Source: Bacteroidota bacterium | GTDB lineage: Bacteria > Bacteroidota > Bacteroidia > UKL13-3 | DNA length: 44,775 bases | Direction: 5' to 3' | NCBI GenBank assembly: GCA_947477885.1 | Contig: CANJUD010000016.1 | Location: forward strand, 1-44,775 | In this document: positions 28,970 to 41,594 of the stretch, in pieces | Numbering within the stretch: the stretch's first letter is position 1 | Layout of the letters: each line of letters starts with the position of its first letter | Translations under genes and position numbers: made by a program | Notes under the pieces: model-generated | What the model saw: only the letters and a program-made list of their open reading frames with translations | The model's database searches: none | Told to the model about the DNA's origin: nothing

Positions 28970-29029
28970 TCAGCACATCTTGGGTTTGATACAATCATAT
29001 AAAAAAAAACAACCTGCCAAATTTGAGCA

Positions 29030-29037
29030 TAAATTTG
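29030..29037 (+). promoter_or_regulatory. -7 promoter element before the B12-binding protein and sugar operon
   Basis: TAAATTTG matches TAnnTTTG and lies 11 bases before ATG 29049. It supports that start over an upstream in-frame TTG at 28980 and would drive the whole plus-strand sugar gene cluster. A clear -33 element is not seen. Confidence 0.45.
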
Positions 29038-29048
29038 CCCCTCGTAAA

Positions 29049-29456
29049 ATGGAAAGACCTATCAGAGTTTTAGTTGCAAAAGTTGGCCTTGATGGACACG
29101 ACCGCGGAGCGAAAGTTATCGCTACATCCTTGCGTGATGCGGGAATGGAGGTGATATATACAGGCTTGCGGCAGACGCCTGAGATGGTGGTGAAGGCCGC
29201 ATTGCAAGAAGATGTGGACGTGATTGGCGTGAGCATTTTATCAGGAGCACACAATACCGTGTTTCCAAAAATCATCACCTTGATGAAACAAGAAGATATG
29301 GGCGATGTGCTGCTTACAGGCGGTGGGATTATCCCAAACGCGGATATGGATGAACTAAAAAAAATGGGTGTAGGACAGTTGTTCCCGCCCGGCACGCCTA
29401 CTACCGAAATAGTGGGATATATAAAAGAATGGGTGAAAGAAAAACGCGTATTATAA
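29049..29456 (+). CDS. Stand-alone cobalamin-binding (methylmalonyl-CoA mutase C-terminal type) protein
   Basis: A 135-residue B12-binding domain. [20 protein letters not shown] contains the D-x-H-x-x-G motif whose His replaces the lower axial base of the cofactor. [18 protein letters not shown] and [30 protein letters not shown] complete the flavodoxin-like fold. Such small subunits partner with a separate large mutase subunit to isomerise methylmalonyl-CoA to succinyl-CoA. No large subunit is in the window. It ends one base before the cytidylyltransferase start, placing it at the head of the sugar operon; this may be accidental. The ATG at 29049 is chosen because of the -7 box directly upstream. 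Confidence 0.85.
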
Positions 29457-29457
29457 T

Positions 29458-30231
29458 ATGAAAGTTGTTATACTGGCCGGCGGACTCGGAACACGCCTAA
29501 GCGAAGAAACCGGAATGAGACCCAAGCCTATGGTTGAGATTGGTGGCAAACCTATCTTATGGCATATCATGAAAATATATAGTCATTATGGTTTCAATGA
29601 TTTTGTAATTTGTGCAGGCTACAAAAATTATTTTATCAAAGAATATTTTGCCAACTATGTATTGCACAATACAAGTATTACTGTTGACTTAAAAAACAAT
29701 GCGATTGAATATCATAAAAGCGAAGTGGAACCTTGGAAAGTAACCATCGTTGATACTGGGAATGATACAATGACCGGAGGCCGCATCAAACGCATTGAAG
29801 AATATTTAGACAATAAACCCTTTATGCTCACTTATGGTGACGGTGTGGGGAATATTGATATCTTTGCTCTTGTAGCATCGCACAAAGCAAGTGGCAAACA
29901 TTGCACTTTAACTACAGTGCAACCCGTTGGAAGATTTGGTGTAATAGATATAGAACCCAGTGGTACCGTTTCAAATTTTCATGAAAAACCAACCGAAGGC
30001 GGAACGTGGATCAACGGAGGTTTTTTTGTGTGTGAACCCGAAATATTTAAATTGTTGAATCATGATTATGATATATGGGAGAAAGCCCCGCTAGAAACAT
30101 TGGCAAACACAAACCAACTAAACGCTTTCAAACACCAAGGTTTTTGGCGGCCAATGGATACCCTGAAAGATAAAAATGACTTGAACGATTTATGGAACAA
30201 TAAACAGGCTGAATGGAAACTATGGAAGTAG
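29458..30231 (+). CDS. rfbF: Glucose-1-phosphate cytidylyltransferase
   Basis: Makes CDP-glucose from glucose-1-phosphate and CTP, the first committed step of the CDP-dideoxyhexose pathway. The nucleotidyltransferase signature GGLGTRLSEETGMRPKPM, IGGKPILWHIMKIYS, the metal/sugar segment LTYGDGVGNID and the RFGVIDIE, HEKPTEGGTWINGGF stretches are those of RfbF. The C-terminus ends GFWRPMDTLKDKNDLNDLW, also typical. It has 257 residues, full length. It lies one base after the B12-protein stop, and the stop codon itself forms part of a long inverted repeat. Confidence 0.95.
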   Translation: MKVVILAGGLGTRLSEETGMRPKPMVEIGGKPILWHIMKIYSHYGFNDFVICAGYKNYFIKEYFANYVLHNTSITVDLKNNAIEYHKSEVEPWKVTIVDTGNDTMTGGRIKRIEEYLDNKPFMLTYGDGVGNIDIFALVASHKASGKHCTLTTVQPVGRFGVIDIEPSGTVSNFHEKPTEGGTWINGGFFVCEPEIFKLLNHDYDIWEKAPLETLANTNQLNAFKHQGFWRPMDTLKDKNDLNDLWNNKQAEWKLWK

Positions 30232-30345: not shown

Positions 30346-31407
30346 ATGTTAAAAAGCACATACCTCAACAAAAAAGTCCTAGTAACCGGTCATACGGGTT
30401 TCAAGGGCTCGTGGTTGTGTGTGTGGTTGCAGCTGATGGGAGCTAAGGTGAAGGGATATGCATTGGAGGCAGAGAATCCATCATTATATAAGTTGATAGC
30501 AAAAGATTTAGAGATAGAATCATATATTGGTGATATAAGAAACAGAGAACTTTTTAAACAAGAAATACTCAATTTCGAACCAGATTTTATTTTCCATTTG
30601 GCTGCACAGCCCTTGGTAATTGCTTCGTACGAGCAACCTGTTGAAACATTCGAAACCAATGTAATGGGCACTGCACACTTATTAAATGCTGTACGATTCT
30701 TGGAAAAACCATGTACGGTTGTATGTATAACAACAGATAAAGTATATGAAAATAATGAGTGGATATATCCCTACAGAGAAACCGATCATTTGGGCGGGCA
30801 CGACCCATACAGCTCAAGCAAAGCAGCATGTGAGATTGTAATACAGTCATATAGAAGATCATTTTTTAACCCCGAACATTATAATAATCACAAAAAAGGA
30901 ATTGCCAGTGCACGTGCGGGGAATGTAATAGGAGGAGGCGATTTTGCAGAAAATAGAATCGTTCCCGACTTAATAAAAGCATTAGAAAATAATCAACCGC
31001 TACAAGTGCGAAACCCGCAAGCCGTGAGGCCTTGGCAGCATGTATTGGAGCCACTCAGCGGCTATTTATTACTGGGACAAAAACTATATAATAACCCCAC
31101 AGAATTTGCACAAGCATATAATTTTGGTCCTTGGCCACAGGATACGATGCCCGTGGAATCATTGGTGAAACTATTAATACAATCTTGGGGAAGTGGAGAT
31201 TATCATACTCCCGAAAACAAAAACAAACTACACGAAGCAGGTCTATTAGAACTTGATATTTCGAAAGCCGTAAACCAACTCAACTGGCAACCCAAACTCA
31301 ATATTTCCGAAACCGTAAATATGATAACAACTTGGGCAAAAAACTATACTAACCAAAATCCTTTCGACCTATGCAGAGAGCAGGTGGAGGGGTATGTAAA
31401 TATTTGA
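30346..31407 (+). CDS. rfbG: CDP-glucose 4,6-dehydratase
   Basis: Converts CDP-glucose to CDP-4-keto-6-deoxyglucose. An extended SDR with VTGHTGFKGSWLCVWLQ (NAD loop), FHLAAQPLV, a Thr-Asp-Lys triad region CITTDKVYEN and the YSSSKAACE catalytic pair. ARAGNVIGGGDFAENRIVPDL and VRPWQHVLEPL are typical of RfbG. The 353 residues are full length. The ATG follows the 30229-30340 hairpin element by 5 bases; the next gene starts one base after its stop. Confidence 0.95.
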   Translation: MLKSTYLNKKVLVTGHTGFKGSWLCVWLQLMGAKVKGYALEAENPSLYKLIAKDLEIESYIGDIRNRELFKQEILNFEPDFIFHLAAQPLVIASYEQPVETFETNVMGTAHLLNAVRFLEKPCTVVCITTDKVYENNEWIYPYRETDHLGGHDPYSSSKAACEIVIQSYRRSFFNPEHYNNHKKGIASARAGNVIGGGDFAENRIVPDLIKALENNQPLQVRNPQAVRPWQHVLEPLSGYLLLGQKLYNNPTEFAQAYNFGPWPQDTMPVESLVKLLIQSWGSGDYHTPENKNKLHEAGLLELDISKAVNQLNWQPKLNISETVNMITTWAKNYTNQNPFDLCREQVEGYVNI

Positions 31408-31408
31408 T

Positions 31409-32725
31409 ATGATGGAAGAGGCAAAACTCAAAAATATAAAAGACCAAATAAACGAACTTACTGAACAGTATTATAATATAAAGTTTGCTAAAAAACCATT
31501 TGAGGCAGGAGTAAATAATGTTCCAGTTAGCGGTAAAGTTTTCGATGCAGAAGAATTAAAATATATAATAGATTCTTCATTAGATGGATGGTTCACCACA
31601 GGAAGATTTAATAAAGCATTTGAAAAAGATTTAGCAAAATTTATTGGTTGCAGAAGAGTGATAACTGTCAACTCTGGCTCATCAGCCAATCTCTTGGCAT
31701 TTGCTACTTTAACCTCGGAAGAGCTTGGTGAAAGAGCAATAAAACCAGGTGATGAAATTATATCTGTAGCTGTATCATTTCCTACTACTTTAAACCCAGC
31801 TATATCTTTTGGATGTATTCCAGTTTTTGTTGATATAGATATTCCAACATATAATATAAATGTTGAATTAATAGAGGCAGCTATTACTCCGAAAACAAAA
31901 GCTATAATAGTTGCCCACACTTTAGGAAATCCATTTAATATTGAAGCAATACAACATATAGCAAAAAAACATAAACTTTGGATTATTGAAGATTGTTGTG
32001 ATGCATTGGGTGCAACATTCAATGGCAAACACGTAGGAACTTTTGGTGATATATCTACACTAAGTTTTTATCCTGCACATCATATTACTATGGGTGAAGG
32101 TGGGGCAGTTTTTACTAATCATACAAAGCTTGTTACACTAATAGAATCTATTAGAGATTGGGGCCGCGATTGTTGGTGCGAAACAGGTTGCGACAATACT
32201 TGTGGTAAGCGTTTTGAATGGCAACTAGGCGGACTTCCATTAGGCTATGACCACAAATATATATATTCACGAATTGGATATAATTTAAAGATAACTGACA
32301 TGCAAGCTGCATTAGGTTTGGCACAACTTCATAAGCTTCCCAAATTTGTGGAGCAACGCAGAGAAAATTATTCCAAACTATATAATGGATTAAAAAAATT
32401 CCAAGATAAAATTATATTGCCTGAACCAACACCTAACTCAGAGCCTTCTTGGTTTGGTTTCTTAATTACTCTGAAAGAGGAAGCAGGGGTTGACCGAAAT
32501 ACAATTATTAAAATACTCTCAGATGCTAAGATAGACACACGTTTGCTTTTTGCTGGAGATATTAGAAAGCAACCCTATTTCGAAAAAGTGAATTACCGTG
32601 TGTCTGGCGATTTGCCGAATAGTAGCATTGTATTGTATAATACATTTTGGATTGGCGTAACACCCATGATTGGAGATGAAATGATAGCACATGTAGTTAA
32701 AACATTTGATTCCATTTTTTCATGA
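31409..32725 (+). CDS. rfbH: CDP-4-keto-6-deoxyglucose 3-dehydrase (E1), PMP and [2Fe-2S] enzyme
   Basis: Removes the C3 hydroxyl of CDP-4-keto-6-deoxyglucose. It is an aspartate-aminotransferase-fold protein in which the PLP-binding Lys is replaced by His (H224 in FYPAHHITMGEGG), the hallmark of E1 dehydrases that use PMP. The iron-sulfur ligands follow the known spacing C-x57-C-x-C-x7-C: C197, C255, C257 and C265, with the latter three in RDCWCETGCDNTCGKRF. The length of 438 residues is normal. Its partner reductase (E3, a ferredoxin-flavin reductase such as RfbI/AscD) is not in this window and must be elsewhere if the pathway runs as in Yersinia. Its stop overlaps the next start (ATGA). 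Confidence 0.95.
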   Translation: MMEEAKLKNIKDQINELTEQYYNIKFAKKPFEAGVNNVPVSGKVFDAEELKYIIDSSLDGWFTTGRFNKAFEKDLAKFIGCRRVITVNSGSSANLLAFATLTSEELGERAIKPGDEIISVAVSFPTTLNPAISFGCIPVFVDIDIPTYNINVELIEAAITPKTKAIIVAHTLGNPFNIEAIQHIAKKHKLWIIEDCCDALGATFNGKHVGTFGDISTLSFYPAHHITMGEGGAVFTNHTKLVTLIESIRDWGRDCWCETGCDNTCGKRFEWQLGGLPLGYDHKYIYSRIGYNLKITDMQAALGLAQLHKLPKFVEQRRENYSKLYNGLKKFQDKIILPEPTPNSEPSWFGFLITLKEEAGVDRNTIIKILSDAKIDTRLLFAGDIRKQPYFEKVNYRVSGDLPNSSIVLYNTFWIGVTPMIGDEMIAHVVKTFDSIFS

Positions 32726-33765
32726 TATCAAGTATTATACAAGAAGATATTAATAGTATTATAAATGAGGATTTGCCTTGGGAAAATTTTAAAGGCAAAA
32801 CTATTTTAATTACTGGTGCAAATGGTTTTTTACCTGCTTATTTATCTTATGTGTTTATATATCTTAACAAATTAAAGGACTATCATATTGAACTGATTTT
32901 ACTTTGCAGAAATAAAGAAAAAGCAGAACTGAAATTTGCACAATTCCTTGAAGATAAAAATATACAATTATTGATTCATGATGTAAACGAGCCTATTTCA
33001 ATTGAACAAAACATTGATATTATAATACATGCCGCAAGCCAAGCTAGTCCTAAATTTTATGGAATTGACCCTGTAGGTACAATCAATGCAAATATTTTAG
33101 GTACAAGTAATTTACTTAAATTAGCATACGAAAAAAAATGTGAGAATTTTCTATATTTTAGTTCGAGTGAAGTATACGGAATTGGTAACACAGATGGCAA
33201 TCCTATAGCAGAAAACGATTTTGGTTATATGGACCCGACAAATGTGAGAGCTTGTTATGGAGAAGGAAAAAGAGCAGGAGAAACCCTATGTGTTTCGTGG
33301 ATGCATCAATATAATGTTCCAGTAAAAATAGTTCGGCCTTTTCATACATACGGACCAGGTATGGATTTGACTGATGGCCGTGTATATGCTGACTTTATAT
33401 CAGACTTAGTAAACAATAAAGATATAGAAATGAAAAGCGATGGCTTAGCGGTGCGGGCATTCTGCTACTTAAAAGATGCCACTATCGGTTTTCTATATAT
33501 ACTTTTAAAAGGCAAAAACGGACAAGCATATAATTTGGGAAATATCAATGGCCGTTCATCAATAATTGAATTAGCAGAAAAATTAGTTGATTTATTCCCT
33601 CAGAAAAAGTTAAAACTTATTAAAAAAGAAGCTGACGAAAACTATATTAGGAGTTTGGTAAATATTAATCTGCCCAACTCCACAAAATTAGGCAACTTGG
33701 GTTGGAACCCAACAACCACAATAGATGAGGGATTTAAAAGAACTGTATTAAGTTATACGATATGA
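32722..33765 (+). CDS. NAD-dependent epimerase/dehydratase (extended SDR)
   Basis: A 347-residue nucleotide-sugar SDR. The NAD loop is TGANGFLPAYL, the active-site strand ends FSSSEVYG, and the catalytic pair is in CYGEGKRAGE (Tyr and Lys four apart). YFSSSEVYGIGNTDG and YGEGKRAGETLCVSW also resemble UDP-glucuronate decarboxylases. HTYGPGMDLTDGRVYADFI and AYNLGNINGRSSI complete the fold. It overlaps rfbH and the next gene by ATGA, so it is an integral member of the operon and most likely reduces, epimerises or further dehydrates the sugar intermediate. The exact reaction cannot be assigned. Confidence 0.85.
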   Translation: MISSIIQEDINSIINEDLPWENFKGKTILITGANGFLPAYLSYVFIYLNKLKDYHIELILLCRNKEKAELKFAQFLEDKNIQLLIHDVNEPISIEQNIDIIIHAASQASPKFYGIDPVGTINANILGTSNLLKLAYEKKCENFLYFSSSEVYGIGNTDGNPIAENDFGYMDPTNVRACYGEGKRAGETLCVSWMHQYNVPVKIVRPFHTYGPGMDLTDGRVYADFISDLVNNKDIEMKSDGLAVRAFCYLKDATIGFLYILLKGKNGQAYNLGNINGRSSIIELAEKLVDLFPQKKLKLIKKEADENYIRSLVNINLPNSTKLGNLGWNPTTTIDEGFKRTVLSYTI

Positions 33766-34679
33766 TAGAAGAAATACATAATAAATTTAAAAATAACGAG
33801 ATATCCAAACATGAATATATCGAACAAATGTATGCTGTTCACAATATATTGTTTGAATACCAACCATTACTAAAAGCTAGTGATATTGAAAGAATAGAAC
33901 TCAATATAGATAATATCATATTTGTATATAAGCATACTGGCATTAAATTTATTTGCAGTATTGGTGATAAAAGGCTTGCCCCTCTTGATTCCCTGAACTT
34001 TGGAGAATATGAAAGAGAAGAATTGGATATGCAATTCAGAATTATACAAGCCGGTTGGAATATTATAGATATTGGGGCAAACTATGGTTGGTATGCTTTA
34101 CAAATGGCTACACAATTCCCCCAAAATCATATATATAGTTTTGAACCTATTCGACATACGTTTGAACAGCTTAACAAAAACATAGCGTTAAACAATTATA
34201 ATAATATAACAACAAACAATATTGGTTTATCGGAAAGTGCTGGTACTTTTGATTTTTACTTTAACCCGCAACTATCAGTAAATGCAAGCCTTGCCAATGT
34301 TTCTGGAAGTGATGATATCCATAAAGTTATCTGTACAGTAAGTACTTTAGATACTGAAATTAATAAGAGGAATATTACACCTCATTTTATTAAAATAGAT
34401 ATTGAAGGTGCAGAATTATTAGCTTTAAAGGGTGGAGTAGAAACAATAGAAAAATATAAACCTGCATTCTTTTTGGAAATGCTTCGCAAATGGTCAGCTA
34501 AGTTTAACTATCATCCAAACGATATAATAAATTTATTAACTTCAAAAAACTATAATTGTTATATCATACAAGGAGACATTTTGCAAGAAATTAATGAAGT
34601 GACCGAAGAAACTATTGAAACAAATTTTATATTTTTGCATACTGAAAATCATTCTGACTTAATTCAAAATTTAACCTAA
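33762..34679 (+). CDS. FkbM-family methyltransferase
   Basis: A 305-residue SAM-dependent O-methyltransferase. The SAM-binding motif is IIDIGANYGWYAL (about residues 105-117), followed by IYSFEPIRHTFEQL, and FIKIDIEGAELLALKGG is the FkbM post-motif. HFIKIDIEG supplies the catalytic Asp region. FkbM proteins methylate hydroxyls of sugars in O-antigens and polyketides. Its place between the epimerase and the transketolase subunits suggests methylation of the sugar made by this operon, or of its polymer. The first ~90 residues are not typical of the domain and may be a recognition extension. It ends directly before the next start. Confidence 0.85.
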   Translation: MIEEIHNKFKNNEISKHEYIEQMYAVHNILFEYQPLLKASDIERIELNIDNIIFVYKHTGIKFICSIGDKRLAPLDSLNFGEYEREELDMQFRIIQAGWNIIDIGANYGWYALQMATQFPQNHIYSFEPIRHTFEQLNKNIALNNYNNITTNNIGLSESAGTFDFYFNPQLSVNASLANVSGSDDIHKVICTVSTLDTEINKRNITPHFIKIDIEGAELLALKGGVETIEKYKPAFFLEMLRKWSAKFNYHPNDIINLLTSKNYNCYIIQGDILQEINEVTEETIETNFIFLHTENHSDLIQNLT

Positions 34680-35486
34680 ATGGAATTAAAACTATTTGCA
34701 TCTGATGTTAGGAAAATCGCATTAAAACTGGTGTTTGAAAAGAAAGCATCACATATTGGCGGAGCTTTTTCCATGGTTGAATTATTGACCGTATTATATA
34801 ATAAAATTCTAAATGTAAATCCTTCAAATCCCAATGACGAGAATCGTGATAGATTTTTATTATCTAAAGGCCATGCTTGTTCTACATTATATTCTACACT
34901 TGCATTAAAGGGATTTTTTACATTGGATGATTTGAATAGTTATACTGAAAACGGGAGTTATTTTACGTCACATATCAATCACAAAATAGCAGGTATAGAA
35001 TTATCGACGGGGAGCTTAGGCCATGCACTTCCTGTGGGTTGCGGGCTTGCATTATCAGCTAAAAGAAATAATAAATCATGGCAAACTTATGTGATGGTGA
35101 GTGATGGTGAATTGAATGAAGGTTCTAATTGGGAATCTATATTATTTGCACCACAACACAAATTGGATAACCTTACTTTAATAGTAGACTATAATAAAAT
35201 ACAAAGCTTGGGTTCTGTTGCCGAAGTGATGGAATTGCATCCGCTTGCAGATAAATTCAATGCATTCAGATGGGAAGTTTTTGAAATAGACGGACATAAT
35301 TTCGATGAAATAGAAACTGCATTTAATGCGGCAAAAAATATAGAAGGTAAACCTTCTGTAATTATTGCAAACACTATCAAAGGTAAGGGCGTAGACTTTA
35401 TGGAAGATAAATTATTATGGCATTATAAATCGCCCGACAAGCAACAATTAGAAGATGGTTTGAAACAAATAGAAGCGGAAAAATAA
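34680..35486 (+). CDS. Transketolase, N-terminal (TPP-binding) subunit
   Basis: A 268-residue half-transketolase. The thiamine diphosphate site is VSDGELNEGSNWE followed, 25-30 residues later, by VDYNKIQSLG, the GDG...N motif of the family. LSKGHACSTLYSTLAL and STGSLGHALPVGCGLALSAKR line the substrate and cofactor cleft. The pyrimidine-binding half is encoded by the next gene. The two-subunit form is common in archaea and in bacterial polysaccharide loci. The start immediately follows the FkbM stop (TAA-ATG), so expression is coupled. A role in nucleotide-sugar branching rather than the pentose phosphate pathway is inferred from the locus. Confidence 0.9.
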   Translation: MELKLFASDVRKIALKLVFEKKASHIGGAFSMVELLTVLYNKILNVNPSNPNDENRDRFLLSKGHACSTLYSTLALKGFFTLDDLNSYTENGSYFTSHINHKIAGIELSTGSLGHALPVGCGLALSAKRNNKSWQTYVMVSDGELNEGSNWESILFAPQHKLDNLTLIVDYNKIQSLGSVAEVMELHPLADKFNAFRWEVFEIDGHNFDEIETAFNAAKNIEGKPSVIIANTIKGKGVDFMEDKLLWHYKSPDKQQLEDGLKQIEAEK

Positions 35487-35492
35487 GTATAT

Positions 35493-36383
35493 ATGAGAAC
35501 AGCATTCATCAACCAATTAATAGTAGAAGCTCGCCAGAATAAAAATATATTTTTGGTAGTGGGCGATTTGGGTTTTTCAGTAGTTGAACCTTTTACAGAT
35601 GAATTTCCAGATAGATTTTTGAACGCAGGTGTAGCTGAGCAAAACATGACCGGAATTGCAGCAGGATTGGCTATGGAAGGATATAATGTATTTACTTATT
35701 CTATTGGAAATTTCCCCACGATGCGTGCATACGAGCAGATACGTTACGATGTATGTTATCATAACCTGAGTGTGAAAATTGTATCTGTGGGTGGCGGATA
35801 TGCGTATGGTCCATTAGGCACTTCGCATCATGCGACGGAAGATTTTGGCATCATGCGAGTACTCCCAAATATGATTGTTACTGCACCTTCTGACCCACAT
35901 GAAGCAAAAGCAATTACTACTTTATTGTGTAACCACAAAGGTCCAGGTTATATACGTTTGGGTAAGGCTGGCGAACCAAACCTTCATCAACGGGAAGTAG
36001 GATTACATATTGGCCAAGCATTATATATAAAAGAAGGTTCAGGAAATTTATATATTGCCACAGGTTCTATATTAAAAGATGTAATAGCACATGTAACTGC
36101 AAACGACCCAACAGCAGGTATAGCAAGTTTCCCTTTTATAAAACCACTTGACACTCATTTTATTGCTGATGCGGCCAAAAAATATACAAACTGGATTAGC
36201 TTAGAAGAGCACCAAAGCAGTTGTGGATTTGGTTCGGCGGTATTAGAATGTTTGAATGACTTATGTAACAATCAAACTATACCTAATATGCCAAAAATTA
36301 AGCGGGTTGCAATACCCGACAAGTTTATTGGTTATGCTGGCACGCAAGAATTTTTGAGAAAAGAGGCAGGTCTTATATTATAG
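35493..36383 (+). CDS. Transketolase, C-terminal (pyrimidine-binding) subunit
   Basis: A 296-residue partner of the preceding gene, 6 bases away. VAEQNMTGIAAGLAMEG contains the conserved Glu that activates the thiamine ring. YAYGPLGTSHHATEDFGIMRVLP supplies histidines of the active site, and GPGYIRLGKAGEP is typical of the family. The C-terminal domain (SFPFIKPLDTHFI, LEEHQSSCGFGSAV) is the usual third domain of transketolase. With the N-subunit it should form a complete enzyme transferring a two-carbon ketol unit. The gene ends with a 6-base overlap with the convergent repeat-protein gene. Confidence 0.92.
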   Translation: MRTAFINQLIVEARQNKNIFLVVGDLGFSVVEPFTDEFPDRFLNAGVAEQNMTGIAAGLAMEGYNVFTYSIGNFPTMRAYEQIRYDVCYHNLSVKIVSVGGGYAYGPLGTSHHATEDFGIMRVLPNMIVTAPSDPHEAKAITTLLCNHKGPGYIRLGKAGEPNLHQREVGLHIGQALYIKEGSGNLYIATGSILKDVIAHVTANDPTAGIASFPFIKPLDTHFIADAAKKYTNWISLEEHQSSCGFGSAVLECLNDLCNNQTIPNMPKIKRVAIPDKFIGYAGTQEFLRKEAGLIL

Positions 36384-37943
36384 TTTAACTTTAAAAGTTT
36401 GGCTAGATTTGTTATCATTGACCTGCACAAGTAATAGGTGATTTGAATAATATTCTGGTATTTCAATTATATAACCATTATTATTATATATATAACTTGA
36501 AGGAATTAATTTACCATCAAAACTATATATAGAAACTTGAACTTTATTTAAGCTAAAATCTAATGCCTTTGCAGATTCAAGTTTAATTGTATTTTTTGAG
36601 GTGCTATATATATGATAGTTCCCTTTGCTATTTTCTATTTTTGAAAAGCCAATGTTATATCCCGAATATATACCCATAACTCCCAAGTCGAAAGTGCCGT
36701 TTATATTTGTGAATCCCACAATAAATATTCTTCCATCGGGCTGTATACCAACAGCGTTTAGATAATCATCGCCCCCAGAACCAAATTTTTGGGTGAATTT
36801 CCCGTTTTGCCCGAAACTGTTGTCGAGATTACCATCTGCATTATATCTAACAAGCCCAGCCGACAATTTTCCATTTGCATCTTTGTATCTTCCAACGAAT
36901 AGTATTTTATCATTCCTCTGCACACAAACTCCTCTTCCATAATCATCGGATGTACCAACAGTAGTAACTTGTATTCCTCCTACTCCAAAAGTGTTATCTA
37001 AATTACCTGACGAATCATACCTTACTATTGCATAATCATTATTATTTGCACTTTTACAATAACCACCTAACAATATTTTACCTGTTGATTGCATAGCAAT
37101 TGAAAAAGCCCAATCATCTTTTCCCTTAAAATCTGTAATTTGTTTTCCTGAGTTGCCGAAAGTATTGTCTAATGTGCCATCAGTATTCAACCGAAGTACT
37201 ACAAAATCAATTGTGCCATTGTTCACTATCCCTCCCATTAATATTTTACCATCAGGCTGAATAAAATTTCCATAACATTTGTCGTCATTGCTTCCTATAT
37301 CAATTTGTTTAATGCCATTGCTGCCAAAACTATTATCTAGCTTTCCATCTGTATTAAGTCTGATAGTCATAAAATCTGCATCACCACCTGACACGGTATA
37401 CCCTGAAACAACAATTTTACCATCACTTTGAATTTTTAAAGCGTATGCCCTATCGTCTCTCGAACTATTATCTATAATTACTTTACCGCTTGACCCAAAA
37501 GTATTATCAAGGGTGCCATCAGAATTTACTCTCACTATTCCAAAATCAGATATTCCATTATCTACAATAGAGCCAACCATAACTACTTTATCATCACTTT
37601 GAACAGCAATATCTGCCCCGTCATCCGTAGTTCCACCAAAATCGAATGATGAAAACCCCTTGTTGTTAAATGAATTATTGTCCAAAGTGCCATCGCTATT
37701 TAACTGATATATTGCAAAATCATTATTATAAATACCTGCTATAACTATTTTACCATTATTCTTCAGAGCAACTGCATTTCCCAAATTGTCATACCCCAAC
37801 ACGTCTATAATTACTTTGCCTGAACTACCAAAATTAAAATCAAGAGTGCCTGCTGTTTGACCTTTAACCGCCATAAAAGGCATGGCACAAAATGCCACTG
37901 CTGCTATTAATTTAGCACTGATTTTTTGACTGTTTTTTTTCAT
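36378..37943 (-). CDS. Secreted delta-60 repeat protein
   Basis: A 521-residue exported protein: signal peptide (about residues 1-28, ending VKGQ), then seven delta-60 repeats recognisable by the GxLDxxFG box (for example SDGTLDNTFGSSGKVI), each about 55-60 residues and forming a beta-propeller-like array. After about residue 430 a different domain follows (KIENSKGNYHIYSTSKNTIKLESAK...) that ends SSQTFKVKL and looks like a T9SS-type C-terminal domain. It is probably surface-exposed or released. It follows the 1215-residue PKD protein by 3 bases, so both are one transcription unit. The role is unknown; adhesion or extracellular binding is usual for such proteins. Confidence 0.8.
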   Translation of the reverse strand: MKKNSQKISAKLIAAVAFCAMPFMAVKGQTAGTLDFNFGSSGKVIIDVLGYDNLGNAVALKNNGKIVIAGIYNNDFAIYQLNSDGTLDNNSFNNKGFSSFDFGGTTDDGADIAVQSDDKVVMVGSIVDNGISDFGIVRVNSDGTLDNTFGSSGKVIIDNSSRDDRAYALKIQSDGKIVVSGYTVSGGDADFMTIRLNTDGKLDNSFGSNGIKQIDIGSNDDKCYGNFIQPDGKILMGGIVNNGTIDFVVLRLNTDGTLDNTFGNSGKQITDFKGKDDWAFSIAMQSTGKILLGGYCKSANNNDYAIVRYDSSGNLDNTFGVGGIQVTTVGTSDDYGRGVCVQRNDKILFVGRYKDANGKLSAGLVRYNADGNLDNSFGQNGKFTQKFGSGGDDYLNAVGIQPDGRIFIVGFTNINGTFDLGVMGIYSGYNIGFSKIENSKGNYHIYSTSKNTIKLESAKALDFSLNKVQVSIYSFDGKLIPSSYIYNNNGYIIEIPEYYSNHLLLVQVNDNKSSQTFKVKL

Positions 37944-37946
37944 GAG

Positions 37947-40900
37947 TTATCTAACAAGTTTTACATTTCCTGTCAAATCAATATCTTTCGATTTAAATAT
38001 ATATATATATACGCCTTCAGGTGCTTCTTTGCCACTAGATGTTTTGCCGTCCCATAAATTACTTAAACTATCGGTGTCAAAAATTCTTTCACCCCAGCGG
38101 TTAAATATATCCATGTGAAACTTTGTAATACAATTGAGGTTGCCCAAAACTTCAAACTTATCATTCAGCCCATCGCCGTTGGGACTAAAGGCATTGGGAA
38201 GGTATAAACTATTATTAATTCCAGTTAACGAAAGTGTTTTTGTAATACTATCTTTGCAACTGTTGCCACTATAAGCTATTAGTTTTACATCATAATTTCC
38301 ATCACCATTAATTTTTTGATCAGGATTTTGAAGTTTAGAAAAAAGCGTGTCGGGGACCAAGTACCATTCCCATTTATTAGACTGTGATGAGGCATCAGCA
38401 AAGCTAACAATACCAGTACAAGTATTCAAAGTATAAGTAAAGTCGGCAGTGATGGATGTAATTACTTTAATGGTTTTTCTGAAGGTATCGCTTACGCTGC
38501 ATCCACTTGGGTCTAAGGCGATAAGTTTAACTACATAGGTTCCAGCTTGTGTGAAAATATGTGTAGTATTAGTATTGGTATCGACACTGCCATCATCGAA
38601 ATCCCAAACATAGTTTGTTGCCCCTACACTTTTATTTGTAAATTTAATATTGAGCGGAATACATCCTCCATAATTATCTGCATAAAACGAAGCTTTGTTC
38701 AAAGAGTCAATAACTATGGAAACATATACCAATTCCGTATCTTGGCATGTTCCATTTGTTACAGTAAGTAATGCCTTATAGTTGCCTACTTTATTATAGT
38801 TATGTGCAGTATTGAAATTGGTATCGGTATTTCCATCTCCAAAATTCCATATATAACTTATGCCATTATTGCTATTATTGGTAAACACCACGCTGTCAGT
38901 ACAGGTAATCTGATTAAAGGATAAGGCTGCACTGGGGCTTGTTAATATATTTATGGTAGTAAAAGCGGTATCATACATTTTACACCCAGCCACGTCGATA
39001 GTAATCAACACAACATTATAAGAACCACTTACCATATAGGTATGAGAAGTATTATAATTGGTATCTGTGTTTCCATCCCCAAAATCCCATATATAACTTG
39101 TTGCACCATTGCTACTATTTCCAAATATAATTTTAAGCGGTGCACATCCGCCTTTTGATGACACATTGAATGCTGCATTATTAATCGTGTCGTTTGATAT
39201 GGTAATGAACTGTTGACTCGAATCCATACAGCCATTGGTAGATGTAGCAATTAATTTTACCAGATAAGAACCCAGTGAAGCATAGGTATGGCTTAAATTA
39301 ATGTTTGTGCTATTGCTTGTATTTCCATCTCCAAATTTCCAAGTATAGCTTGTTGCACCTGTGGTATTATTCTTAAAATCAATTTGTGTGGTACATCCTG
39401 CTTTAGCATACGAAAAAGATGATTTGGGTTTTACATATACATTAATTCCTTTATATGAGCTATCCAAAAATTTACATCCAAAAGAATCTATACTATTTAA
39501 TCTCACCGTATAGTATCCACTTGTTATATACTTATGAACTACATTCTTGTTTGTGTCAACCGGACTGCCATCGCCAAAATCCCATACATAGTTTGTAGCA
39601 CCATTGCTCGTATTGGTAAATATGCATGTGAGGGTGTCGCAACCATTCGTATCTGATACATTAAAAGCAGAAGTATTAATAGAGTCACTAGATATTTTTA
39701 TAGTTTTTGAAATTGAGTCTTTGCAGCCGGAAGATGATGTAGCAACTAGTTTAACAGGATAATTCCCACTTACAGCATAGTTATGACTAAATGTACCCGT
39801 ATTTGTTCCAGTGTTTCCATCTCCAAAATCCCAATTTATACTAGTATACCCTGTAGAATTATTTTGAAAAGTTATATTGGTAGCACAGTTATTACCACTT
39901 GCAACAAATTTGGGTGTTGGTTTAGTATTTACATTTATTATAATAGTATCTGATGTTGTGTCGCAGCCTATAGATACTTGCAATATATATGTCGTGGTTA
40001 TACTGGGTTTTACTGTAATTGTGGCGTTTTTATTCCCTGTATTCCATAAATAATGTGTTCCAACTATTGGAGATACTCCTATATTTAAAGAATCTCCTGT
40101 ACAAATTGTTTTATCTGCCCCTAAAAAAACGGCACCTACGGCGTTGTAATACATAACTAACAAGGCATCGGTATTGCCTTTTGAAGTAAAACTTTGACCA
40201 GCGATGGTAGATGTCGACTCTAAAAAGCCAGCAACATATATATAATTACTTTTGTCGATAGCTAATCCCTGAGCTCCATCATTATTTGATCCACCACCGT
40301 AATCATACCACAATACTTTGCCCGATGTATCTAACATTGAAATCCAATAATCATCTCCTCCGTAATAGGTGCTTGTCTTCGCTGCATAAGTAATTTGACC
40401 ACCAAGTTTGCCGCCTATATATATCAGACTATCATTATTACCTAGTATAATATCATATCCTTGGTCATCTCCTGTTGAACCATATAATTTCCCCCAAATT
40501 GCAACACCATTAGAATCAAATTTTACTATATTAACATCATAATTACCTATTCCACTACCTAGTGATATATCATTACCATCGCTTGAAGTAACTATTGAAC
40601 TACCTTTGTTATGTCCAGAAACATATATCGTATTGTTTTTATCTATTACCAATGCAAGCCATACATTGCCTCCTGTAGACGTGTATAAAGATTGCAGCCA
40701 AAGGCAAGTTCCCGCTGCGTTGAAACGAGCTAAATATCCTGTATGAAAGTTACTCGATTTAGAGGTTTTAGCGCCAAAAGTTATAGTCTGCCCCGAAAGA
40801 CCAGCAACTCCACATATAACAATATTGTCTGATTTGTCAATATGAACAGAGGTGCCAATATCATCTCCTATACCTTTTCCTTGAACACCCCACAGAGCAT

Positions 40901-41594
40901 GTCCTGTTGAATCAGATTTTATCAAAAATGCATCATTTGAACCGCCTGATGTAAAACTAATAGTATCAAATTTTGCAGTTCCTTTGAATTCTCCAGTAAT
41001 ATAATAATTGAGGTTTTTATCAATAACTATATCATGTCCCATATCATCACCTGTGCTGCCTCCAAAAGTATTTGCCCATAATATATCTCCATTTTGAGTA
41101 TATTTAGCAACAAAAACATCATATCCACCTTGACTTGTAAGTGTTTTATTGCTTCCGTTTTGAGAAGTTAGTGTTGCTGTTCCTTGGTATCCTCCTGTCA
41201 CATAAATATTCCCGTATATATCGTTATCCATTCCTAAAAAATAAACACATTCATCTCCCGAACTTCCGATAGTTTGCCCCCATAATAAATTTCCTTTACA
41301 ATCAAATTTGGCTAAAAAATTATCTACCCCGCCAAAGTTTTGAATGGTTTTAGAACCAATTGTAATTGAAGCATTATTTGAACCAAACACATACACATTT
41401 CCACTATCATCAGCATAAATTTCATCCGATTCATCATGCTGTGCACTGCCTATCTGCCTACCTATAGTAGAATATTGAGCAAAGGATGAATTGTTAAAGA
41501 TGAATGATAAAATAAAAAGTATAAGTATTTTTTGAATCGTATTCCCCGACTTACAAATCCTGCAACAATCTCTTTGTATAACTTCGTATTTCAT
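37947..41594 (-). CDS. Giant secreted SBBP/Ig/PKD repeat protein with T9SS gliding-type CTD
   Basis: A 1215-residue exported protein. A signal segment (to about residue 40, ending SSFAQ) is followed by about eight SBBP-type beta-propeller repeats (to about 490; for example ILWANTFGGSTGDDMGHDI), an Ig-like SprB-type domain (about 490-558; FLGADKTICTGDSLNI), six clear PKD domains plus one degenerate copy (about 558-1125; each with WDFGDGNT), and the CTD from LPNAFSPNGDGLNDKF to the end (NRWGERIFD, GVYIYIFKSKDI). This CTD is the gliding-motility-associated type that targets proteins through the T9SS to the surface. Its repetitive DNA is expected for PKD tandem copies. Probable adhesin; no enzymatic domain is visible. 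Confidence 0.9.
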   Translation of the reverse strand: MKYEVIQRDCCRICKSGNTIQKILILFILSFIFNNSSFAQYSTIGRQIGSAQHDESDEIYADDSGNVYVFGSNNASITIGSKTIQNFGGVDNFLAKFDCKGNLLWGQTIGSSGDECVYFLGMDNDIYGNIYVTGGYQGTATLTSQNGSNKTLTSQGGYDVFVAKYTQNGDILWANTFGGSTGDDMGHDIVIDKNLNYYITGEFKGTAKFDTISFTSGGSNDAFLIKSDSTGHALWGVQGKGIGDDIGTSVHIDKSDNIVICGVAGLSGQTITFGAKTSKSSNFHTGYLARFNAAGTCLWLQSLYTSTGGNVWLALVIDKNNTIYVSGHNKGSSIVTSSDGNDISLGSGIGNYDVNIVKFDSNGVAIWGKLYGSTGDDQGYDIILGNNDSLIYIGGKLGGQITYAAKTSTYYGGDDYWISMLDTSGKVLWYDYGGGSNNDGAQGLAIDKSNYIYVAGFLESTSTIAGQSFTSKGNTDALLVMYYNAVGAVFLGADKTICTGDSLNIGVSPIVGTHYLWNTGNKNATITVKPSITTTYILQVSIGCDTTSDTIIINVNTKPTPKFVASGNNCATNITFQNNSTGYTSINWDFGDGNTGTNTGTFSHNYAVSGNYPVKLVATSSSGCKDSISKTIKISSDSINTSAFNVSDTNGCDTLTCIFTNTSNGATNYVWDFGDGSPVDTNKNVVHKYITSGYYTVRLNSIDSFGCKFLDSSYKGINVYVKPKSSFSYAKAGCTTQIDFKNNTTGATSYTWKFGDGNTSNSTNINLSHTYASLGSYLVKLIATSTNGCMDSSQQFITISNDTINNAAFNVSSKGGCAPLKIIFGNSSNGATSYIWDFGDGNTDTNYNTSHTYMVSGSYNVVLITIDVAGCKMYDTAFTTINILTSPSAALSFNQITCTDSVVFTNNSNNGISYIWNFGDGNTDTNFNTAHNYNKVGNYKALLTVTNGTCQDTELVYVSIVIDSLNKASFYADNYGGCIPLNIKFTNKSVGATNYVWDFDDGSVDTNTNTTHIFTQAGTYVVKLIALDPSGCSVSDTFRKTIKVITSITADFTYTLNTCTGIVSFADASSQSNKWEWYLVPDTLFSKLQNPDQKINGDGNYDVKLIAYSGNSCKDSITKTLSLTGINNSLYLPNAFSPNGDGLNDKFEVLGNLNCITKFHMDIFNRWGERIFDTDSLSNLWDGKTSSGKEAPEGVYIYIFKSKDIDLTGNVKLVR

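Follow-up and report, generated by a model that had tools for sequence, protein, structure and literature searches.

A two-chain transketolase within a CDP-sugar operon of a Bacteroidota bacterium, with a predicted role in branching sugar nucleotides

YerE and the YerE-like lyases ErwE and JanthE, which are encoded in lipopolysaccharide loci, are ThDP enzymes that add a short chain to CDP-3,6-dideoxy-4-ketoglucose (PMC12247030). The split-gene transketolases of miharamycin and amipurimycin biosynthesis in Streptomyces have been proposed to extend a keto sugar by a hydroxyacetyl group; the 2025 review from which this account is taken lists 13 candidate split transketolases, all from Streptomycetes and none tested in vitro, and states that addition of a two-carbon ketol to a ketone had not yet been shown for any transketolase (PMC12247030). 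The split transketolase found in Carboxydothermus hydrogenoformans accepts aldehydes together with hydroxypyruvate (PMC7661550). Actinoplanes missouriensis carries, in its wps-2 exopolysaccharide cluster, adjacent genes for a methyltransferase, both transketolase halves (N and C) and a DegT protein (PMC13390465, 2026); the consulted section of that description lists the transketolase halves by domain and assigns them no role.

The window analysed here, which is the whole stretch of 44,775 nucleotides, encodes a two-chain split transketolase on the plus strand, with open reading frames at 34680–35486 (tktN, 268 residues) and 35493–36383 (tktC, 296 residues). These genes close a seven-gene, same-strand run with the order rfbF-rfbG-rfbH-SDR-FkbM-tktN-tktC. 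The run begins with rfbF (29458–30231), for a glucose-1-phosphate cytidylyltransferase yielding CDP-glucose (TIGR02623, 405.8 bits against a cut-off of 300.25), followed by rfbG (30346–31407), for a CDP-glucose 4,6-dehydratase yielding the 4-ketone (TIGR02622, 483.3 bits against 278.45), and rfbH (31409–32725), for a PLP-dependent 3-dehydrase of the E1 type (NF011936, 703 bits against 423). As all three exceed their NCBIfam equivalog cut-offs, genes for a CDP-4-keto-deoxy sugar are present within the operon. The window RfbH carries the motif FYPAHHIT, with a histidine at the aminotransferase lysine position, as well as a C-x-C-x7-C motif, both of which we take to be marks of an E1 dehydrase. 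The following genes encode an SDR of the NAD-epimerase/dehydratase family (32722–33765; PF01370, E 1.7e-39), a proposed branch-ketone reductase, and an FkbM-family methyltransferase (33762–34679; PF05050, E 2.6e-20; TIGR01444, 101.8 bits against 37.7), for which O-methylation is proposed. Packing is tight: rfbG stops at 31407 and rfbH starts at 31409, rfbH overlaps the SDR gene (32725/32722) and the latter overlaps FkbM (33765/33762), FkbM ends at 34679 directly before tktN at 34680, and tktN and tktC are separated at 35486/35493. From rfbG onward, neighbouring genes thus overlap or are at most six bases apart, and the gene after tktC is convergent. The initial annotation had described a two-gene transketolase inside a sugar-nucleotide operon, closely coupled to FkbM and rfb genes, and ORF coordinates, Pfam domains, rfb equivalogs and gene spacing all agree with it.

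The reading frame at 28980–29456, which ends one base before rfbF, encodes a stand-alone B12-binding domain of the methylmalonyl-CoA-mutase type (158 residues) and is also kept in the related locus L048. Beyond the operon, two large, secreted-looking repeat proteins (521 and 1215 residues) are encoded convergently on the minus strand (36378–41594). The E3 reductase needed by RfbH is encoded nowhere in the operon; the sole E3 candidate found in the genome, a PaaE-like reductase on contig C18, might serve RfbH. When this PaaE-like protein was used as a query against the family loci, weak matches were obtained in five, and both the reductase and ferredoxin parts were matched only in an E3-like frame located just upstream of the rfbF gene of its locus (L080:3895–4902).

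The Pfam assignments, namely PF00456 on the ThDP-binding chain TktN (E 3e-46) and PF02779 plus PF02780 on the Pyr and C-terminal domains of TktC (E 3e-27 and 2e-11), encoded by the adjacent gene, place the pair in the split-chain transketolase superfamily. Only transketolase-type families were matched, and not the PF02776 type, which leaves the pair outside the YerE-like lyases. For both chains, the best sequence match in the PDB was the split-chain transketolase of C. hydrogenoformans (6yak/6yaj). Against NCBIfam, TktN scored 241.6 bits with transketolase versus 34.3 bits with DXS, whereas TktC scored nearly the same with DXS (125.2 bits) and with the transketolase model NF004559 (125.7 bits). 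An AlphaFold2 model of TktC (mean pLDDT 92.2) returned a DXS as the top Foldseek match, with a split transketolase close behind.

Active-site positions were anchored on human transketolase through a HMMER alignment of a housekeeping chain, with phosphate-site roles that we assign to human R318, S345, H416, D424 and R474. We then compared 82 family rows, comprising the window, the best 80 of at least 527 relatives and L017 of genome G082, with 26 housekeeping C-chains. S345, H416, D424 and R474 were invariant in 26/26 housekeeping chains; in the window pair, they are replaced by Phe, Gly, Leu and Lys, which sets it apart from housekeeping transketolase (EC 2.2.1.1). Across the 82 family rows, which include the best 80 of at least 527 relatives, S345 was replaced by Phe (60) or Tyr (22) and H416 by Gly (81) or Ala (1), D424 was never Asp and mostly Leu, and R474 was Lys in 62 and Arg in 20; the activating glutamate E366 was retained in 82/82, and R318 in 81/82 plus one gap. 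Among 36 viral and plasmid relatives, H416 was Gly in all 36, Arg474 was kept in 33 and Asp424 in three. Part of the phosphate site therefore persists in the family, given the retention of Arg474 in these rows and in 20/82 bacterial ones, of Asp424 in 3/36 and of R318 nearly everywhere.

On the TktN side, the equivalents of E. coli H26, H66 and H100, the last of which we take to contact the ketol donor, were His in 87/88 rows, and that of H261 in 88/88; the Gly directly after the latter was Tyr in 87/88. The window pair retains its ThDP/metal-binding and catalytic residues (four His, an Asp, an Asn and the activating Glu). The claim in the initial annotation that both halves keep the TPP site and the activating glutamate is thus sound for the Glu of TktC and the catalytic His, Asp and Asn of TktN, but not for the ThDP motif 'GDG', which reads SDG in the window and in 76/88 family rows. 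Since catalytic residues are kept and phosphate-site residues replaced, the window enzyme should be active, yet not on the usual sugar phosphates. The phosphate-binding residues, by which the initial annotation had proposed to compare it with housekeeping enzymes, differ at four positions, both in the window and across the 82 rows. In E. coli transketolase, we take R358, S385, H461, D469 and R520 as the equivalents of the human phosphate-site positions. Mutations at these positions were used to engineer that enzyme for aromatic aldehydes and 5-ketogluconate (PMC7661550, PMC12016104).

Apart from the window pair, the genome (3.1 Mb, 99.88% complete) has a single PF00456 match, located on contig C5 (housekeeping TktN, L003:4037–4885), and one further transketolase C-chain, on contig C9 (housekeeping TktC, L012:3225–4178), the latter of which retains the phosphate-site residues. 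These housekeeping chains are unlinked here, and both chains occurred together in 18/20 housekeeping control stretches. The initial annotation had proposed to look for a second, full-length transketolase elsewhere in the genome; a second enzyme is present, but it is also split. The idea that the window pair might be the only transketolase was accordingly rejected, and the combination named beforehand as speaking against a specialised enzyme, a sole transketolase with all phosphate residues intact, fails on both counts.

A search of GTDB genomes, with an alignment of five sequences as query, returned at least 595 stretches. Relatives are encoded in at least 527 of them, and the best 80 of these were taken for analysis; TktN was present in all 80. 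When 94 C-chains, 14 of them housekeeping, were placed in a quick IQ-TREE tree, the family and the housekeeping rows were split with an SH-aLRT of 100. The clade of the window comprised 44 rows (the window and 43 loci; SH-aLRT 92), and the remaining 36 (35 loci and G082), hereafter the sister group, consisted of 32 that group together (86) and four basal ones. Within the available flanks of up to 10 kb on each side, RfbF, RfbG or RfbH was found in 36 of the 43 clade loci among the best 80 of at least 527 (RfbF in 32, RfbG in 29 and RfbH in 26), and five of the seven without any had less than 5 kb of upstream sequence. By contrast, none of the 35 sister-group loci from the same best 80 contained RfbF, RfbG or RfbH; a sugar transferase was found in 29 and a DegT aminotransferase in 24, where the cluster names are our own reading, checked for one DegT member. 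At E 1e-10, the 20 housekeeping neighbourhoods, of which 18 spanned 19.9 kb and the other two 19.5 and 12.3 kb, contained no RfbF, RfbG, RfbH, SDR or FkbM. The clade of the window spans at least 11 named phyla, one of them archaeal, and both groups together at least 17.

RfbH shared the strand of TktN in all 26 RfbH-bearing loci among the best 80 of at least 527; it preceded TktN by no more than 5.3 kb in 25 of these loci and followed it in L114. Histidine replaced the aminotransferase lysine in 50/50 RfbH rows examined, and the C-x-C-x7-C motif was present in 33/47, all 14 misses being from viral miniature loci. Five loci (L060, L063, L085, L093 and L103) combined a C-methyltransferase with RfbF/RfbG, and a true RfbH was not detected in these five, so that the shared intermediate would be a CDP-4-keto-6-deoxy sugar. 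In a Methanofastidiosum contig, RfbH and RfbF matches fall within a single open frame of 806 residues (L084:4707–7124). In the sister group (L059, L073, L074, L083, L087, L104, L127 and others), the pair is found between sugar-transferase and DegT genes, without CDP-glucose genes. The link to CDP-sugars is therefore not universal in the family; the DegT protein might aminate the branch ketone in these loci.

Relatives were also found on plasmids and viral contigs. A Paenibacillus cellulosilyticus plasmid carries rfbF, rfbG, a C-methyltransferase gene, a natural SDR-TktN fusion (L167:7097–9001), annotated solely as an SDR oxidoreductase, and TktC; the fusion partner is a relative of the fold of the window SDR. 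In a Methylovirgula plasmid, the order is rfbF-rfbG-SDR-rfbH-tktN-tktC. The scan of viral contigs yielded 34 loci, six of which cover the whole C-chain at 39–40% identity and 28 only its first ~160 residues; PHROGs returned little for the window pair. In one miniature locus (L145), a TktN of 201 residues and a TktC of 159 residues are encoded between RfbH and FkbM. This viral cassette, with RfbH, a short TktN, a short TktC devoid of the C-terminal domain, FkbM and SDRs (L145:3047–7989), recurs in many of the loci L139–L166 and may represent a minimal ThDP carboligase. The C-x-C-x7-C motif is missing from all 14 long-enough RfbH sequences of the viral miniature loci.

Among 395 genomes drawn evenly across the phylum, RfbH was present in 29 and the transketolase family (E 1e-55) in three, namely the window's genome, G136, where it lies 2.8 kb from RfbH, and G446, which had no RfbF or RfbG match; the pair thus stands beside RfbH in only two of the 29 RfbH genomes. 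The profile PF02776, which covers the N-domain of ThDP enzymes of the YerE type, was searched in the 28 other RfbH genomes, and 13 of these had a matching gene on the contig of RfbH, no more than 6 kb away from it (G153, G432, G213, G406, G375, G388, G423, G181, G323, G385, G248, G381 and G154). In the two genomes that have the pair beside RfbH, G136 and that of the window, this 6-kb range contained no such gene, and the one PF02776 match above the cut-off in the window's genome is a MenD by our own reading. A PROSITE-like ThDP pattern caught only two of nine YerE-type ORFs, and BLAST was used instead. YerE-type ORFs occurred in three of the best 80 of at least 527 family loci (L058, L121 and L112) together with the pair, whereby strict mutual exclusion of the two was rejected. 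The window SDR is 35–36% identical to SDRs directly adjoining YerE-type genes in L197 and L201. With the PF02776 genes near RfbH, this similarity indicates that the pair occupies a slot held in other genomes by a ThDP enzyme of the sugar-branching type; by analogy with YerE, these neighbours of RfbH would themselves branch sugars.

Our preferred reading, to which we assign a probability of roughly 0.6, is that the pair transfers a two-carbon unit, most likely a ketol, to the 4-ketone of a CDP-3,6-dideoxy-4-ketohexose, so that a branched octose for a surface glycan results. RfbF, RfbG and RfbH would supply the CDP-3,6-dideoxy-4-ketohexose, and the two chains would assemble into a ThDP heteromer dedicated to sugar nucleotides, which would load the two-carbon unit, most likely glycolaldehyde from hydroxypyruvate or a ketose, on ThDP. 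Its transfer to the ring ketone at C4 would create a tertiary alcohol bearing a hydroxyacetyl branch. The SDR would reduce the ketone of this branch, the FkbM protein may carry out an O-methylation, and the octose would enter a surface glycan. Specialised ketol transfer, one of two roles suggested by the initial annotation, is supported by the separate housekeeping pair, the replaced phosphate residues, the recurrent linkage to CDP-4-keto-sugar genes and the YerE-type genes beside RfbH. The other, supply of a donor, found no backing, as the phosphate pocket is lost and the recurring neighbours act on sugar nucleotides rather than sugar phosphates. For the branching reading also speak the strand shared by RfbH and TktN, the likeness of the window SDR to SDRs adjoining YerE-type genes, the SDR-TktN fusion and the five C-methyltransferase loci. 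Against it count the absence of an E3 gene from the operon, the remaining part of the phosphate site, the co-occurrence of a YerE-type ORF with the pair in 3/80 loci, the sister group devoid of CDP genes, and the scarcity of the pair beside RfbH in the phylum sample.

The donor is the weakest point of this mechanism. Because TktC, in contrast to the transketolase-like TktN, resembles DXS just as much, the donor may be pyruvate, in which case the pair would act like DXS or PDH E1 and set an acetyl branch on the 4-ketone, giving a yersiniose-like product. The near-equal TktC scores and the DXS on top of the Foldseek list fit this account, as does the use of pyruvate by YerE, the functional parallel (PMC12247030). 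The clear preference of TktN for the transketolase model and the near-invariant equivalent of H100, a ketol-donor contact, speak for a ketol, so that we consider pyruvate unlikely, if the strongest of the alternatives. More doubtful is a role of the pair in producing an unusual sugar phosphate or another precursor of the same glycan without contact with a CDP-sugar. CDP-4-ketosugar reductases of the SDR type are common in loci of this sort, and the window SDR could alternatively reduce the 4-ketone itself to give a plain 3,6-dideoxyhexose; the sister group likewise has the pair without CDP-sugar genes. However, such a precursor role fits poorly with the replaced phosphate-binding positions, the 4-keto sugar makers RfbF and RfbG kept in RfbH-less loci, the SDR-TktN fusion in L167 and the YerE-type enzymes in the same neighbourhood. 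An ordinary pentose-phosphate transketolase that drifted into the operon would explain the conserved catalytic residues and the Pfam and NCBIfam labels, but it was rejected on residues and tree and seems very improbable: the genome has a second pair, the phosphate residues are replaced, the family is split from housekeeping rows at an SH-aLRT of 100, and the linkage recurs in at least 11 named phyla.

Sugar branching by YerE, from another ThDP superfamily, is already known, as is the proposal of split transketolases for miharamycin and amipurimycin. By title and abstract, we recognised no report of a transketolase of CDP-sugar loci in the open-access literature searched; Krug et al. 2024 may overlap. 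At about even odds, we suggest that an unrecognised transketolase branch, present in at least 17 named phyla, plasmids and phage-like contigs, makes C-branched sugar nucleotides for surface glycans as a counterpart of YerE, adding a two-carbon ketol to a ketone, after which an SDR in one group and a DegT aminotransferase in the other process the branch ketone. If so, many genes filed as central-metabolism transketolases would be sugar-branching enzymes, and many surface glycans would contain overlooked C-branched octoses. A virome study read a viral 'transketolase' as a pentose-phosphate gene (PMC3877843), which such a gene would then not have to be. There is demand for transketolases that accept ketones, as catalysts in the synthesis of chiral tertiary alcohols, and the family supplies many more candidates than the 13 Streptomycetes sequences, next to genes that point to the probable acceptor and thus make ketone acceptance directly testable.

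Compared with the described systems, wps-2 of A. missouriensis resembles the sister group and differs from the window operon, as the consulted part of its description names no CDP-glucose genes (PMC13390465). The C. hydrogenoformans enzyme shares the two-chain architecture, but, unlike the window pair, it keeps the phosphate-site Ser, His, Asp and Arg in our alignments. The miharamycin and amipurimycin enzymes, likened here by description only, are likewise split transketolases proposed to act on a keto sugar; whereas they belong to the secondary metabolism of Streptomycetes, the present family is found in surface-glycan loci with CDP-sugars across many phyla. The window pair is encoded in a locus of the type that houses YerE of yersiniose A biosynthesis, next to a comparable SDR; however, YerE is a single polypeptide that uses pyruvate and belongs to the ThDP decarboxylase superfamily (PF02776 type), and the window pair consists of two chains with transketolase domains only. 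The pair would then be YerE-like in its mode of action and a transketolase by superfamily.
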